Assembly (NCBI GenBank): GCA_903919125.1
Contig: CAIXGS010000036.1
Span: forward strand, 1-64,000
Direction: 5' to 3'
Origin: an uncultured Spartobacteria bacterium
GTDB taxonomy: Bacteria > Verrucomicrobiota > Verrucomicrobiia > Chthoniobacterales > Chthoniobacteraceae
DNA length: 64,000 bases
Shown here: positions 34,583-42,839 of the stretch, piece by piece
Position numbering within the stretch: position 1 is the first letter of the stretch
Layout of the letters: every line of letters begins with the position of its first letter
The notes under the pieces: model-generated
Database searches by the model: none
What the model was told of the DNA's origin: nothing
What the model saw: only the letters and a program-made list of their open reading frames with translations
Made by a program: the position numbers and the translations under genes

Positions 34583-35728
34583 ATGATGCGAAGATGGCTC
34601 TCAATCGCAGCGGTTTTGCTGCTCGCCGTGATAGCCTGGCGGCAATGGCATCCGGCGGCGATTCCACAGGAATTCTTCCCGATTTCGGAGAGCGCGGTGA
34701 TGAAGCCGTCGCCCTTAACTCGTTTTTCTGGCGGGCAATTTCCAGCACTGGCGGCGTTGGAGGAGGATTATACGCGTCTCGTGGAGTCCGTTGTTCCTTC
34801 TGTGGTTAGCATCACGACACAAACAAGAATCCGTCAGAAAGTTCCCGTGGTTCTCGACGCGTTCGACTTGCTCTTCGGATCCCGCCACCAGCGCGTCGTA
34901 GAACAAACTCAGACGGGGCTGGGTTCGGGCGTGATCGTTTCCACGGAGGGCCACGTTCTGACAAATCACCATGTGATTGCTGGCATGGAGGAGATCCGAG
35001 TGCAGATGACTGACGGTCGGGTGGAACCGGCGGAGTTGATCGGGAGTGATCAGGCCACGGATATTGCGGTGTTGAAGATCAAAGGACCGGTACAGGCGTT
35101 GAGTTTTTCGGACTCGGATAAGATTCGCGTGGGGCAACCAGTGCTGGCCGTTGGGAATCCGTTTGGGTTGCAAGAAACTGTAACACAAGGAATTATATCA
35201 GCAAAAGGCAGGGCGATGCGGGATAGTGGCGTGGAGTTTTTACAGACAGATGCCGCAGTGAATCAGGGAAATTCCGGCGGGCCACTATTGAATTATCGCG
35301 GCGAGATTATCGGCATTAACAGCGCGATTTATTCGGCCAATACGGGAACGTGGTTGGGGATTTCTTTTGCGATTCCTTCCAACGTCGCGCAGCGCTCAAT
35401 GCAAAGTATTTTGCTCACCGGGCGGGTGCAGCGGCGGACGTTGGGCGTGTCGACGATGGCGCTTACTCCGGCGATCGCGAATCAAGTGGGGCTGCGAGCG
35501 GTGGTGGGCGCGTACGTCACGCAGGTGAAGCCGGGTTCACCAGCGGAAAAGGCGGGGGTGCAGGTGGGCGACGTGATCGTGCGGATCAACGGAGAGGTAC
35601 TCGAAAATCCAGCGGCTTTGCAGAGGGCGTTGTCAGGGAAAAAAGCGGGCACTCGGCTGCAAGTCAGCGTGGTGAGAGAAGGGCGGGAGTACGCTGTGGC
35701 GATGGATGTGGCTGAATTCTCGGAGTGA
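34583..35728 (+). CDS. DegS/DegQ-like serine protease with one PDZ domain
   Basis: The 381-residue protein has an N-terminal membrane anchor or uncleaved signal (5-20). A trypsin-like domain carries the full triad: H130 (LTNHHV), D160 (ATDIAVLK) and S231 (GNSGGP). One PDZ domain follows (about 285-370, with GSPAEKAGVQVGDVIVRING). A single PDZ and an anchor are the DegS layout, though length and loops do not settle DegS against DegQ. It probably handles misfolded periplasmic proteins or envelope-stress signalling. No sigma-E or anti-sigma gene is near. Confidence 0.93.
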   Translation: MMRRWLSIAAVLLLAVIAWRQWHPAAIPQEFFPISESAVMKPSPLTRFSGGQFPALAALEEDYTRLVESVVPSVVSITTQTRIRQKVPVVLDAFDLLFGSRHQRVVEQTQTGLGSGVIVSTEGHVLTNHHVIAGMEEIRVQMTDGRVEPAELIGSDQATDIAVLKIKGPVQALSFSDSDKIRVGQPVLAVGNPFGLQETVTQGIISAKGRAMRDSGVEFLQTDAAVNQGNSGGPLLNYRGEIIGINSAIYSANTGTWLGISFAIPSNVAQRSMQSILLTGRVQRRTLGVSTMALTPAIANQVGLRAVVGAYVTQVKPGSPAEKAGVQVGDVIVRINGEVLENPAALQRALSGKKAGTRLQVSVVREGREYAVAMDVAEFSE

Positions 35729-35841
35729 CGCCGCAGAGTTCTGCTGACGGTCCCATTGCTGGGACACCTCATCTTAATTTATTGGGTTTTGCAAACGGGC
35801 TTCCCGATTTAGGCTTCTTAGTTGCAGCGACTCCTTCCGTA

Positions 35842-35857
35842 GTATTCAGCTGAATAC
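35842..35857. promoter_or_regulatory. Perfect 16-bp palindrome, candidate operator
   Basis: GTATTCAGCTGAATAC is an exact palindrome without spacer. It lies between the DegS-like gene and the exported operon, a few bases before the duplicated 40-bp cassette. A dimeric transcription factor could bind here, but I do not recognise the site. Confidence 0.45.
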
Positions 35858-35863
35858 AAGGTT

Positions 35864-35943
35864 GTTAAAATAGGTTTTAAAAACGAGCCTCTAATAGCGA
35901 GCCGTTAAAATAGGTTTTAAAAACGAGCCTCTAATAGCGAGCC
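35864..35943 (+). repeat. Two exact tandem copies of a 40-bp intergenic cassette
   Basis: The unit runs 35864-35903 and is repeated without change at 35904-35943. Each unit contains the inverted repeat TTAAAATAGGTTTTAA (6-bp arms around TAGG) and two CGAGCC hexamers 14 bp apart. The second copy ends 68 bp before the start codon of the heme-c protein gene. The inner structure suggests a regulator-binding site that was duplicated rather than random sequence. Confidence 0.85.
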
Positions 35944-36011
35944 GTTTATGGGATTGCCTATCGGAGTTCAACTGCTTCAGCGTCCCCGCAGCCATCTCGA
36001 GAATCCACCCC

Positions 36012-38330
36012 ATGATTGTCGTTCCCCTCACGTTGGAACAGCTCTGCTGCGCCGTTGTCCGCCAGTTGTGCGTCTTTGCCTTTATTCTGCCGGCTATCGC
36101 GCCCTTAACCGCGCGTGCGGGCGACTTTAAGTTTGGGAGTCTCACACTCACTGTTCCGGAGGATTACATAGTGGAGCAGGTCGCTGCACCTCCGTTGGTG
36201 GACCGGCCCGTGAACATGGCGTTTGACGAATCCGGCGCATTGTATGTCACGGATTCCTCGGGCGCCAATGAGCGTCCTGTGCAGCAGCTGAAGAATCCCA
36301 CGCACAGGATTCTGCGGTTGGTCGATAAGAACGGGGACGGCCGCTTTGATGAACATACCGTCTTCGCTGATCATCTGTCTTTTCCGGAGGGCGCGATGTG
36401 GTTGGACGGTTCTCTCTACGTGGCCGCGCCCCCGGTGATTTGGAAGTTCACCGACACCGATGGTGACGGCGTCGCCGACAAGCGCGAGATCTGGTTTGAT
36501 GGAGGAACGGTGACCGGTTGCGCTAATGATTTGCATGGTCCGTATGCGGGGCCCGATGGGTACATTTATTGGTGCAAGGGCGCGTTCGCCGAGCAGCGGC
36601 ATGCGCTCGCCAACGGACGTGAATTGGTGACACGTGCTTCACATATTTTCCGCTCCCGCCCGGATGGCAGCGGCCGGGAAATGGTGGTGACTGGCGGAAT
36701 GGACAATCCCGTCGACGTGGTGTTTTCTCGTGCAGGCGAACGGTTTCTGAGCGGGACGTTCTTCGTGAAGCCCGGTGCAGGTTTGCGCGATGGCATCCTT
36801 CATGCGGTGTACGGCGGGGTTTGGGGCAAAGAGCATGGCGTGTTGGAAGGCCATCCTCGAACGGGCGAGTTGATGCCAATAATGACGCACTTGGGCCCAG
36901 CTGCTGCGTGCGGGTTGGAACTGTTGCGCGGCGCTGCCCTCGGCCACCAGGGAACCCTTTTATGCGCGCAGTTTAATCTGCGCAAAGTCTCCACTCACAA
37001 ATTGATGCCGGAGGGCGCAACGTTTCGCACCATCGACAGCGACCTACTCGTTTCTGACAACCCAGATTTTCACCCCACCGAGGTACTGGAAGATGCCGAC
37101 GGGAGCGTCTTGGTGGCGGACACTGGAGGTTGGTACAAGATTTGTTGTCCGACTTCCAAGGAGCTCAAACATGAAGTTCTGGGAGCGATTTATAGAATTT
37201 CCCGCAAGGGTGGTTCCCGCAGCGCGGATCCTCGTGGTGTAAAGTTGGAATGGGACAAGGCGAGTGTAGAGGATCTTGCTCTGAGGTTGAGCGATACGCG
37301 CCATGAGGTTGCGGCGCGGGCGGTAGGGTTGCTGGCGAAGCGCGCTGAAATAGGGGCGGCGTCTGCGGTTCTCGCAGGAACAGGTTCTGTTGGGGCGCGT
37401 CTGAACGCGTTGTGGGTGTTGATCCGCGTCAGGAGCGATGCCGCTAGATCAGCGGTGCGAGCTGGGCTTGCTGACAAGGACGCCGAGGTGCAAACGCTCG
37501 CTGCATATGGCGCGGGGCTTTGGCGGGACCGGACTGCAGCCCCCGCCTTGCGCGCATTGCTGGCCTCGGGGAACCCCCACGTCGCGCGGAGCGCAGCGGA
37601 GTCTCTCGGACGAATCGCGGACAAGGAGGCTGTGCCAGTGTTAATTCAGAATGCTTCTAGCGAGCGCTTTGGATTTCATTCTACAGCTTACGCTCTTTAC
37701 GAAATCGGCGATGTAGCGGCGATTTCAGCCGGAGCTGTCGGGAAACAAGGCACCTCCTCCGAGGTGGCGCAAACCGCTTTGGCTATGCTCGCGCTACCCC
37801 AGCCGCTTTCTGTACCAGCCCTGCCGTTGGTAACTCCGGCAGTCACCACGGATCCGGCGCTGCGCCAGCAACAGCTTGCCCGCTTGCACGAGCTACTCGT
37901 TCTGATGAAAGGCGGTAGCGCCGAGCGCGGAGCTGAGTTGTTCAAAAGCCAGCGCTCTTTGTGTACGACTTGCCATGCTGTCTCGCAACTGGGCGGCGTG
38001 TTGGGGCCGGATCTCACAAAGGTCGGCGCGATCCGCACGGCCACGGACTTGCTGGAGGCCATCGTATATCCGAGCAGCAGTTACGTGCGTAGTTACGAGC
38101 CCATCCTGCTCCGCTTGCGCTCGGGGGAGGAGCATTACGGTATTCTGCGGGATGAGACGCCAGATTCTGTGCGCTTAGCGACAGGACCAGCCGCGGAGAT
38201 TACGCTGCCGAGAAAGGAAATTTCCACCATGACAGAGGGGGCGATGTCCTTGATGCCGCCGGGGTTTGATGGACTTCTCTCGCCGCAGGAACTCGCCGAC
38301 CTTGTCACCTATCTCCTCACCTTACGCTAA
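36012..38330 (+). CDS. Exported PVC-type c-heme protein with beta-propeller and HEAT repeats
   Basis: The 772-residue product has a signal peptide (about 1-36). A six-bladed propeller of the glucose/sorbosone-dehydrogenase-like type follows (about 45-400, with NKNGDGRFDEHTVFAD and TDGDGVADKREIW). HEAT repeats lie at about 420-590. A C-terminal cytochrome c domain has C651-T-T-C654-H655 and a likely axial Met in LMPPGF. This architecture is a hallmark of Planctomycetes and Verrucomicrobia ('PVC-type membrane-bound dehydrogenase'). No substrate is established for the family. It is the first gene of a compact exported operon. Confidence 0.9.
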   Translation: MIVVPLTLEQLCCAVVRQLCVFAFILPAIAPLTARAGDFKFGSLTLTVPEDYIVEQVAAPPLVDRPVNMAFDESGALYVTDSSGANERPVQQLKNPTHRILRLVDKNGDGRFDEHTVFADHLSFPEGAMWLDGSLYVAAPPVIWKFTDTDGDGVADKREIWFDGGTVTGCANDLHGPYAGPDGYIYWCKGAFAEQRHALANGRELVTRASHIFRSRPDGSGREMVVTGGMDNPVDVVFSRAGERFLSGTFFVKPGAGLRDGILHAVYGGVWGKEHGVLEGHPRTGELMPIMTHLGPAAACGLELLRGAALGHQGTLLCAQFNLRKVSTHKLMPEGATFRTIDSDLLVSDNPDFHPTEVLEDADGSVLVADTGGWYKICCPTSKELKHEVLGAIYRISRKGGSRSADPRGVKLEWDKASVEDLALRLSDTRHEVAARAVGLLAKRAEIGAASAVLAGTGSVGARLNALWVLIRVRSDAARSAVRAGLADKDAEVQTLAAYGAGLWRDRTAAPALRALLASGNPHVARSAAESLGRIADKEAVPVLIQNASSERFGFHSTAYALYEIGDVAAISAGAVGKQGTSSEVAQTALAMLALPQPLSVPALPLVTPAVTTDPALRQQQLARLHELLVLMKGGSAERGAELFKSQRSLCTTCHAVSQLGGVLGPDLTKVGAIRTATDLLEAIVYPSSSYVRSYEPILLRLRSGEEHYGILRDETPDSVRLATGPAAEITLPRKEISTMTEGAMSLMPPGFDGLLSPQELADLVTYLLTLR

Positions 38331-38331
38331 A

Positions 38332-39798
38332 ATGATCACACGTCGCCGCACGATACAGACACTCGCGGGTCTCGGCCTCGGTTCACTAGTGGGCAGTGCT
38401 CAGGGCGCTGAAAACCCTGTGAGGCAAGAGAACAAACGCCCTGGTACTCGGGCTTGGCAGCTTGAGCGGCCTCGGCTCGACGTTGGCGCAAAATACAGAG
38501 GCTCTGGAATCGAGGGGTATGCTTCCTCACCCAGCGTGAAGGCAGGGGAGACTGTACGGTTTCATGTTAGCACACGTCCGGCCGTGAGTTGGACTTTGGA
38601 GGTTTATCGTATGGGATGGTACGGGGGAGATGGGGGGCGACTGCTGGCGAAGCTGGGGCCTTTTGAAGGTGTGACGCAACCGGAGGCACCGTTGGGAGAA
38701 AAGCGCGTTCGCGTCTGTGGATGGCCGGTCGCGGCGGAGTGGACGGTGCCTAAAGATGCGGTGAGCGGCGTATATCTTGGTAAGCTGAGCGCTGGGTTGG
38801 ATGGGCCTCAAAGCTATGTCGTCTTCGTTGTGCGTGATGATCGCAAGGCCGATTATATTTTCCAATGCAGTGACTTCACATGGCAGGCTTACAACCGTTG
38901 GCCCTCGCAGTTTTCGCTCTACGATGACGGAGCCAACCAGTGGTATTGGGGCGGGGGCGTGCAGGTTAGCTTCCAGAGGCCGTATGGTAAATATTGCCAG
39001 ATCTTGGATGCCCCGCTTTCGAGTGGGTCTGGGGAATGGTTTTTATGGGAATTCCCCTTCGCGTTCTGGCTCGAGGAGCACGGGTACGACATCACCTATA
39101 TTTCCAATCTCGATACGCACCTCAACGGCGCCGGACTCAAAAGGGCTCGCGGTTTTCTGTCCGTCGGCCACGACGAATATTGGACCATCGAGATGTATCG
39201 TAACGTTCAGGCGGCTCTTGGTGCCGGCGTGAGTCTAGGCTTCTTCTCGGGCAATGCCGTTTGCGGGCGGATTGTTTACGATGAAAAACTCGCCGCCTTT
39301 GAGCGTGTGGGCGTGTACGGTCCTCCGGGAGGGACCCGAGAATTTCAACACATGCAATCGCTCGCGCATGAGCGACCTTACGCCAACGAACTTATCGGAG
39401 CGCATAGCACAGGGCCGGTGACTGGAGGCGCGGATTGGGTGTGTTCACTGCCGGAGCACTGGATTTATGAGGGCACCGGCATGAAGCGAGGCGAGGGGAT
39501 TCCGGGGTTGGTCGGGTGGGAGTGGCACGGGGATCCTGCGCCGATTCCGGGGCTTGAAATAGTGGCGTCAGCTCCCACGCAATCGGCTCCTGGCAAGCTG
39601 AATGGAGGGGTTCATACGGGCACCGTGTATCCGGGAACCAAAGGAAATTTCGTCTTTAACGCAGGCACCTGCTGGTGGGCGGATGGGCTCAGTGCACCTC
39701 CGGGCTATGTGAGGCCGAAGGTTTACACCGAACCCAAAGGCCCTGATGCGCGGGCGCAGCGCATCACTGAAAATATCCTCAAAAAAATGCTCATATGA
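38332..39798 (+). CDS. Tat-exported N,N-dimethylformamidase beta-subunit-like protein
   Basis: The 488-residue product begins with a twin-arginine signal (TRRRTIQTLAGLGLGS) ending near AQGAE. It then shows the DMFase large-subunit pattern: YRMGWYGGDGGR in an N-terminal beta domain, DFTWQAYNRWP, and SVGHDEYWT near 281, a motif tied to the tyrosine-ligated iron site of the characterised enzyme. DMFase hydrolyses DMF to dimethylamine and formate, but most relatives are untested, so only the fold and possible metal site can be claimed. It starts one base after the previous stop and overlaps the next start by four bases. Confidence 0.85.
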   Translation: MITRRRTIQTLAGLGLGSLVGSAQGAENPVRQENKRPGTRAWQLERPRLDVGAKYRGSGIEGYASSPSVKAGETVRFHVSTRPAVSWTLEVYRMGWYGGDGGRLLAKLGPFEGVTQPEAPLGEKRVRVCGWPVAAEWTVPKDAVSGVYLGKLSAGLDGPQSYVVFVVRDDRKADYIFQCSDFTWQAYNRWPSQFSLYDDGANQWYWGGGVQVSFQRPYGKYCQILDAPLSSGSGEWFLWEFPFAFWLEEHGYDITYISNLDTHLNGAGLKRARGFLSVGHDEYWTIEMYRNVQAALGAGVSLGFFSGNAVCGRIVYDEKLAAFERVGVYGPPGGTREFQHMQSLAHERPYANELIGAHSTGPVTGGADWVCSLPEHWIYEGTGMKRGEGIPGLVGWEWHGDPAPIPGLEIVASAPTQSAPGKLNGGVHTGTVYPGTKGNFVFNAGTCWWADGLSAPPGYVRPKVYTEPKGPDARAQRITENILKKMLI

Positions 39799-42700
39799 TT
39801 CGGCTTAATTATCTCGCCGTAGCAGTTTTAGTGCTTAGCGCATTCGTGGCACGAGGGGCTGATGGGATTCAAAGCAAGACTTCATATTCGAAGGCATACG
39901 GTCAGACTAAAAATGCGGTGCAGGTGGATCCAGCCAAGGATTTGCGACGGTATTCGGCGGTGGAGCCTGAGAAGGTTGTGGCGACCTGGAAGGTGAAGGC
40001 GGGGTTTGAAATGCAAGTCGCAGCGCACGAACCGCAGGTGCGCGATCCCGTGGCGATCTGCTTCGACGAAAGGGGGCGCATGTTCGTGTGCGAGATGATC
40101 GACTACTCTGAAATGCGGGATGTGGAACCGCACTTGGGACGGATCTCGGTGTTGGAAGATCGCGATGGTGATGGTGTCTACGAGACCAGCACGGTATTTG
40201 CAGATAACCTGCCGTGGCCCACCGGTGTAATATGGAGTCGTGGCGGTCTGTATGTCGCGGCCACTCCCGACATCTGGCGGCTGGAAGACCGCGATGGTGA
40301 TGGGCGTGCGGAGTTTAGGGAGAAGGTGTTCACCGGCTTCGGTACAGGGCTGAAAGTGTTAAACGTCCAAGGTTTGCTCAACAGCTTTCAGTGGGGTCAG
40401 GATAACCGGATTCACGCGCTTTGCGGCGGTGGCAACCGAGGGGAAATTAGTTGTCTCAAACGGCCGGAAATCCCCGCCCAGGAGTTGGCCGGCCGAGATT
40501 TTTGGTTTGATCCAGCGACGTACGACTTTGGCTTTGAAAACGGAGGTGCGCAGTATGGAATGAGTTTTGATAACTACGGGCGCAAGTTTGGGTGCGCAAA
40601 TTCCGATCACCTGCAGTACTGGATTCATGATGGGGTTCCTGTTTCGCGTAATCCGTTATTTACGCTGCCTGCTGCGCGTCAAAGCATCGCCGCTGATGGC
40701 GGGGCGGCGGAGGTATTCCGAATCAGTCCCGACGAGCCGTGGAGGATTATGCGAACTCGCTGGCGTATTGAGGGTACTGTGCCGGGGGCTGTGGAGGGTG
40801 GTGGGCGAGTTAGCGGTTATTTTACGGGTGCGACTGGGACGACGATTTATCGGGGAGACGCTTATGGTGAGGACTATGTGAACAACAGTTTTACCGGCGA
40901 CGCTGGTGGGCAACTCGTGCATCGCAAGATCATCCGGCCGACGGTGGATGGCGTGAATTTGGTGGGCGAGCGACCCGCGGATGAACGCACATTGGAATTT
41001 GCTGCGAGCACAGACACATGGGTGCGTGTTGTGAACTTTGCCAACGCGCCCGATGGCTGTTTGTACGTATGCGATATGTACCGGGAGGTGATCGAGCATC
41101 CGTGGTCGATTCCGGAAGAAATCAAAAAACACATAGATCTCAATAATGGGAATGATCGCGGGCGGATCTACCGGATTGCACCGATCAAGAAGCCGGCGCG
41201 CATTGGTGCGGCAGTTAATCTCGGCGCAATGGACACACGGAGTCTCGTGGCCACTTTAGCGCATCCTAATGGCTGGCATCGTGACACAGCCCATCGGCTT
41301 TTGGTGGAACGAAAAGATGGGGCGGCGGGTGCGCTTTTACGGGCGGCTGTGACGAGTGGGCCGGAGCTTCAAAAATTGCATAGCCTTGGTGTCTTGTCTG
41401 GTATTGGAGCGTTGACGCCAGAAGTTTTATGCACCGGTCTGCGCGATAGTTCTGCCTTCGTGCGCGAACGCAGCTTACGCGTTGTGGGTGCTTTGTCCAA
41501 ATCGGAGGCACGCGAAACCGCGCTGTTACAAGCCATCGCCGGAGTGGCATCCGATGTCTCACCGAGAGTGCGTTTTCAACTTGCACTGACGCTGGGTTCT
41601 CTGTTGGAAACCGATTCCTCACAGCAGCTTGCTGACGCTCTTGTGGTGCTCGCTCGCAGGGATCACGCGCATCCCTGGATTGGGCCCGGGCTTTTAAGCG
41701 GGAGTCCGGCTACGCTAGTTTCTTTGCTATTCGCGCCGCTCTCAAAGGACGCAGCGTTTCTGGTATCGGGACAAGCGTTTTTCGCGAACCTCGTGGAATT
41801 TAAGGCAGCCTCCGGTTCGCCGGAGGAGCGAGTGGCACTGGTGGATTATCTAACCGACGGGGTGCCTTCGCCTGTCCTTGTGCGCGCCTTTGCAGAGGGG
41901 TTGCGTAAGGCTGGCGCCTCGCTCGAGAGCACTGATCCACGGGGGCGCCTGAAAAGTGTTTTTGAAAAAGCGGCCGAGGCTGCGACCCTTCACAGCAACG
42001 CGCTGGAAAAGCGATTGACTGCGCTTGAACTGTTGGCGGTCGCACCAAACACAATCGCCGCCCCCGCGCTCGCTGCTTGCATCGCCGGAGGCGAGGTCGA
42101 CGCTCTCCAAACCGCGGCTATCGAGGTCCTCTCACGCAACGCGGATAAGAAAACCCTAGCGACGTTGCTTGCTCATTGGTCTTCCTATGGACCGCTGGCG
42201 CGCGAGGCGGTATTGGGTGCCATGTTGGGGCGTGAAGACCGAATCGAAACGTTGTTGGCTGGGATTAAGTCTGGAACCGTTCCTGCGACTGCGCTGAGCG
42301 CGGCGCAAGTACAGGGCTTGGTTCGTCACAAAAATAAAGCGCTGGTCGCACTTGCTCAGACGGCACTGGCCGCGGTCTTACCACCGCCTCGGAGTGTGGT
42401 GGTTGAGCGGTTCAAATTGGCGGCGACCCTTACGGGCGATGCGGCGCGGGGCCGCGTCCAATTTTCACAACGTTGTCAGACATGCCACCGTGCCGGGACT
42501 GAGGGAATTCAGGTCGGGCCGGATCTTGTGACGGTGAAAAATAAAGGGCGCGAGGCTTTGTTAACGGCCATTTTAGAGCCGAACAAAGAAGTTGCTTCCC
42601 AGTATATTCTGCACACGGTAAACCTAAGGGATGGAAGCGGTTTTGCAGGAATAATTGCTGAGGACGGGGCCGAGAGTATGACAATTAAAATGCCCGGTGG

Positions 42701-42839
42701 TTTAACTCAAATTATTGCCCGCGCACAAATCAAGAGCAGTTCCTCAGACGGTCAGAGTCTGATGCCCGAGGGGATCGAGGCTGGGATGAGCGTTGAGGAC
42801 ATGGCCGACTTGTTACAGTTCATTGAAGCGCTTCCGTAA
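39795..42839 (+). CDS. Second, larger exported PVC-type c-heme protein
   Basis: The 1014-residue product has a signal peptide (about 1-21). A propeller domain follows (about 60-450, with VLEDRDGDGVYETSTVFADN) and long HEAT-like repeats (about 470-850). A terminal c-type heme domain has C894-Q-T-C897-H898 and SLMPEGIEAGM as likely Met-ligand region. It resembles the protein encoded at 36012 in architecture but is not a recent copy. Its ATG overlaps the DMFase-like stop, so both heme proteins and the enzyme between them should be made together. Likely role: periplasmic electron transfer or oxidation of an unknown substrate. Confidence 0.92.
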   Translation: MIRLNYLAVAVLVLSAFVARGADGIQSKTSYSKAYGQTKNAVQVDPAKDLRRYSAVEPEKVVATWKVKAGFEMQVAAHEPQVRDPVAICFDERGRMFVCEMIDYSEMRDVEPHLGRISVLEDRDGDGVYETSTVFADNLPWPTGVIWSRGGLYVAATPDIWRLEDRDGDGRAEFREKVFTGFGTGLKVLNVQGLLNSFQWGQDNRIHALCGGGNRGEISCLKRPEIPAQELAGRDFWFDPATYDFGFENGGAQYGMSFDNYGRKFGCANSDHLQYWIHDGVPVSRNPLFTLPAARQSIAADGGAAEVFRISPDEPWRIMRTRWRIEGTVPGAVEGGGRVSGYFTGATGTTIYRGDAYGEDYVNNSFTGDAGGQLVHRKIIRPTVDGVNLVGERPADERTLEFAASTDTWVRVVNFANAPDGCLYVCDMYREVIEHPWSIPEEIKKHIDLNNGNDRGRIYRIAPIKKPARIGAAVNLGAMDTRSLVATLAHPNGWHRDTAHRLLVERKDGAAGALLRAAVTSGPELQKLHSLGVLSGIGALTPEVLCTGLRDSSAFVRERSLRVVGALSKSEARETALLQAIAGVASDVSPRVRFQLALTLGSLLETDSSQQLADALVVLARRDHAHPWIGPGLLSGSPATLVSLLFAPLSKDAAFLVSGQAFFANLVEFKAASGSPEERVALVDYLTDGVPSPVLVRAFAEGLRKAGASLESTDPRGRLKSVFEKAAEAATLHSNALEKRLTALELLAVAPNTIAAPALAACIAGGEVDALQTAAIEVLSRNADKKTLATLLAHWSSYGPLAREAVLGAMLGREDRIETLLAGIKSGTVPATALSAAQVQGLVRHKNKALVALAQTALAAVLPPPRSVVVERFKLAATLTGDAARGRVQFSQRCQTCHRAGTEGIQVGPDLVTVKNKGREALLTAILEPNKEVASQYILHTVNLRDGSGFAGIIAEDGAESMTIKMPGGLTQIIARAQIKSSSSDGQSLMPEGIEAGMSVEDMADLLQFIEALP

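Follow-up and report, generated by a model that had tools for sequence, protein, structure and literature searches.

The 40-bp duplication upstream of the DUF7133/cytochrome c operon

A 40-bp segment is present as two exact, adjacent copies in the spacer that separates an HtrA-type protease gene from an operon for DUF7133/cytochrome c proteins, which raises the question whether such a repeat is a regulatory array or the trace of a recent duplication. The locus was analysed within a window of 64,000 nucleotides, from a genome of 4.34 Mb in 87 contigs. A first-pass annotation had described the segment as a duplicated regulatory cassette that would form a compact operator array before an exported operon. 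Its description and coordinates of the repeat are correct, as copy 1 occupies 35864-35903 and copy 2 occupies 35904-35943 (neither with an assigned strand), the two are identical at 40/40 positions, and each contains the inverted repeat TTAAAATAGGTTTTAA (6+4+6) and two CGAGCC hexamers. Identity at a lag of 40 extends 3 bases past copy 2, to 35946, giving a total of 83 bp, and TRF reports 2.1 copies with a 100% match over 35864-35946.

The upstream gene (34583-35728, + strand) encodes an HtrA-type trypsin/PDZ protease of 381 aa. The downstream run opens with a 772-aa DUF7133, HEAT and cytochrome c protein (36012-38330, + strand) and continues with a DMFA2_C-domain gene (38266-39798) and a second DUF7133/cytochrome gene (39795-42839), so that the placement of the array before an operon for putatively exported proteins was also accurate. 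The DNA around the array is AT-rich, with 36% GC at 35850-35949, whereas the genes on either side have about 60%. The first operon gene has among its named relatives freshwater MAGs labelled Chthoniobacteraceae, and by its relatives the organism is a freshwater Chthoniobacteraceae MAG.

An exact 40-bp tandem is not a product of chance. In the 992 kb of the genome that were scanned, no other exact tandem repeat with units of at least 20 bp falls in a spacer; open frames contain both the other long-unit exact tandem (1-245 of the window, unit length 120 bp) and almost all of the short-unit cases. As for the inverted repeat within the unit, it is unremarkable, as one with 6-bp arms and a loop of 3-8 nt is seen in 9.6% of dinucleotide shuffles of the unit. 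Many unrelated copies across the genome, which the first-pass annotation had named as the sign of a repetitive element, are absent: the TTAAAATAGGTTTTAA pattern is found only in the two array copies, and a search of the 4.34 Mb with the unit's first 26 bases, tolerating as many as 3 mismatches, likewise matches only these two. With just two copies in the genome, a dispersed repeat element (REP, MITE or CRISPR-like) is rejected. An exact 25-mer search of GTDB-representative contigs gave no match for the unit, plasmid records held no similar DNA, leaving a plasmid origin unsupported, and literature searches returned nothing specific.

Comparison with a sister genome

Among the 57 genomes searched, our own included, the spacer aligns in a single relative, G009 (GenBank record CALQFT02), a lake MAG from the same genus and the closest relative in this set. 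It could not be aligned in the other 10 genomes searched from the genus, and in L048 and L049, the two whose sequence reaches far enough upstream, no htrA homologue was found within 3 kb before the gene. G009 is syntenic, with flanking proteins that are 93-96% identical, and at the homologous position it carries a single copy of the unit, GTTGAGACAAGTTTAAAAAACGAACCTCTAACAGCGGGCC, that is identical to either of our copies at 32/40 positions (80%). When 25.8 kb of the two genomes are aligned, no gap other than the 40-bp segment exceeds 12 nt. As aligned, it is copy 1 that is extra with respect to G009, although the identity of the copies makes new and old indistinguishable. The claim that the duplication is recent is therefore borne out by a sister genome with one copy at the same position.

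We conclude with reasonable confidence that the array arose recently, when 40 bp of non-coding DNA were duplicated in tandem between the protease gene and the DUF7133/cytochrome c operon, with slippage as the inferred origin and an effect on expression that is likely small or nil. The junctions are as expected for a slip. The triplet GTT stands before copy 1, between the copies and after copy 2 (35864-35866, 35904-35906 and 35944-35946, the last without an assigned strand), and in G009 it flanks the single copy on both sides (GTT/GTTGAG...GGCC/GTTTAA, slashes marking the boundaries), although a microhomology of only 3 bp is weak evidence by itself. The nascent strand would have slipped between GTT triplets 40 bp apart during replication, or an equivalent end-joining event would have occurred, such that the segment was copied twice. 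In its exact head-to-tail copies, the identical triplet at the unit ends and the single copy in the sister, the array resembles the general bacterial class of slippage-type tandem duplications at microhomology, and it differs from that class in no evident way, with the mechanism here inferred from the junctions. The alternative history, in which two copies are ancestral and one was lost in G009, is formally possible with only one relative whose spacer aligns, but is unlikely, given that our two copies show no difference between them and G009 departs from both at 8/40 sites.

A recent duplication of this kind would have left intact the conserved 68-nt leader between the array and the ATG at 36012 (35944-36011, + strand), where conservation within the spacer is highest (60/68 positions shared with G009), and would have pushed all DNA upstream of the unit further from the gene by about 40 bp, or some four turns of the helix. 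The effect on expression is likely small or nil, and the duplication is most likely neutral or nearly so. It is real and recent, probably ordinary, and of little consequence other than to illustrate that an exact repeat containing an inverted repeat, however striking to the eye, can result from a recent replication slip, and that one sister genome suffices to separate the duplication and operator readings.

Promoter, operator and other readings of the unit

A duplicated core promoter is a doubtful explanation. Each unit contains a weak -35/-10 pair (TTAAAA-19-TCTAAT), which would place two promoters 40 bp apart, both feeding the DUF7133/cytochrome operon. The pair is the top sigma-70-like match of the spacer and occurs in both copies, the aligned G009 site (TTGAGA-19-TCTAAC) ranks second in its own spacer, the GC minimum falls at the array, and the well-conserved DNA just downstream would be the 5′ leader. 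The best score is, however, matched in 34% of shuffled spacers and so does not rise above chance, with an E. coli-like matrix that may not represent the consensus of this group. Moreover, a 19-bp spacing is poor, and the consensus tool gave no promoter on the + strand. The sigma-70-like match is a lead and not evidence, because a third of shuffled spacers score as high.

The duplication may instead have been selected, by doubling a regulatory site or promoter that is specific to this lineage and serves the DUF7133/cytochrome operon, such that expression differs from that of the sister, a reading that we consider improbable. Duplications this long are rare in the spacers of this genome (1 in 992 kb), which counts against a purely neutral reading and makes selection possible. 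Were it true that the duplication altered expression, the locus would be a small natural case of promoter evolution in an uncultured lake Verrucomicrobiota.

The operator array is very unlikely. It would take each 40-bp unit as the site of a dimeric regulator, with contacts at the palindrome TTAAAATAGGTTTTAA, further contacts at the CGAGCC hexamers and the copy number under selection, and it draws on the two exact copies upstream of an operon and on the AT-rich dip in which they lie. In G009, however, the palindrome is broken (TTGAGA/CAAG/TTTAAA) and the counterparts of both hexamers differ (CGAACC and CGGGCC), and neither the motifs nor the copy number is conserved in the sole relative with an alignable spacer. 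The frequency of such inverted repeats in shuffles of the unit also stands against it, as does the lack of further genomic sites that would point to a regulon. Identity to G009 is 80% in the unit, which falls between the 75% of the upstream spacer and the 88% of the leader to the ATG and is on a par with four-fold sites of the downstream gene (79%; those of htrA reach 57%); the unit is no better conserved than its surroundings and not specially protected. With the motifs altered in the sister, the unit conserved only as its neighbours are and no other genomic copy, the regulatory cassette of the first-pass annotation is not supported. Tandem operator arrays and iterons, found upstream of operons or at origins, are similar in having head-to-tail repeats in a spacer, but here there are only two copies, no motif shared across species, no other genomic sites and no known binding protein.

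An RNA element was also considered and is rejected. Rfam covariance models gave no match to the array at E≤1, the + strand folds just slightly more stably than shuffles do (z -1.9), and its hairpin AGGUUU/GAGCCU has, as judged by eye, one pair broken in G009. A terminator search at the array found none. Finally, that the second copy was created during metagenome read assembly is hardly credible: in its favour are an assembly of 87 contigs and named relatives that are MAGs, but usual short reads are longer than the 83-bp array, which lies inside a 130-kb contig, and assemblers more commonly collapse repeats than create them.

A palindrome upstream of the array

Just upstream of the array, at 35842-35857, lies a perfect 16-bp palindrome, GTATTCAGCTGAATAC. 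The G009 version, GTATTGAGCTCAATAC, is still perfect, as its two changed bases partner each other in a compensatory change. When this spacer is shuffled, a 16-bp palindrome turns up in 0.4% of cases. Each of the two genomes contains a single copy of the palindrome, which is therefore not the site of a regulon. Its RNA would form a 6-bp hairpin of about -5 kcal/mol, and through the duplication its distance to the ATG grows from 115 to 154 nt. The palindrome is a better candidate for a regulatory element than the 40-bp unit, possibly as an operator or a small hairpin; upkeep by template-switching correction is an alternative explanation for its retained symmetry.

Further features of the region

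The frame of the 772-aa gene is open backwards into the array. An upstream coding reading is rejected because a 1-nt indel just before the ATG breaks the frame with respect to G009, and because the start context CCACCCC-ATGATTGT (36000-36019) is kept in both G009 and the more distant G001 (72% protein identity). This start has no evident Shine-Dalgarno sequence. Across 34583-38330, the jump in four-fold identity to G009 between htrA and the adjacent DUF7133/cytochrome gene may reflect a recombination boundary or a different codon constraint.

Two further repeats lie in open frames. At the start of the window and of its contig (1-539), a tandem array of a 120-bp unit (4.5 copies, 92% matches) encodes a repetitive protein segment. 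Elsewhere in the genome (L134:8653-8783; contig C76, about 88653-88783), an 11-bp unit, TGGCTCATCCT, is repeated exactly ∼12 times within a 184-codon open frame and is possibly a phase-variable or repetitive segment.
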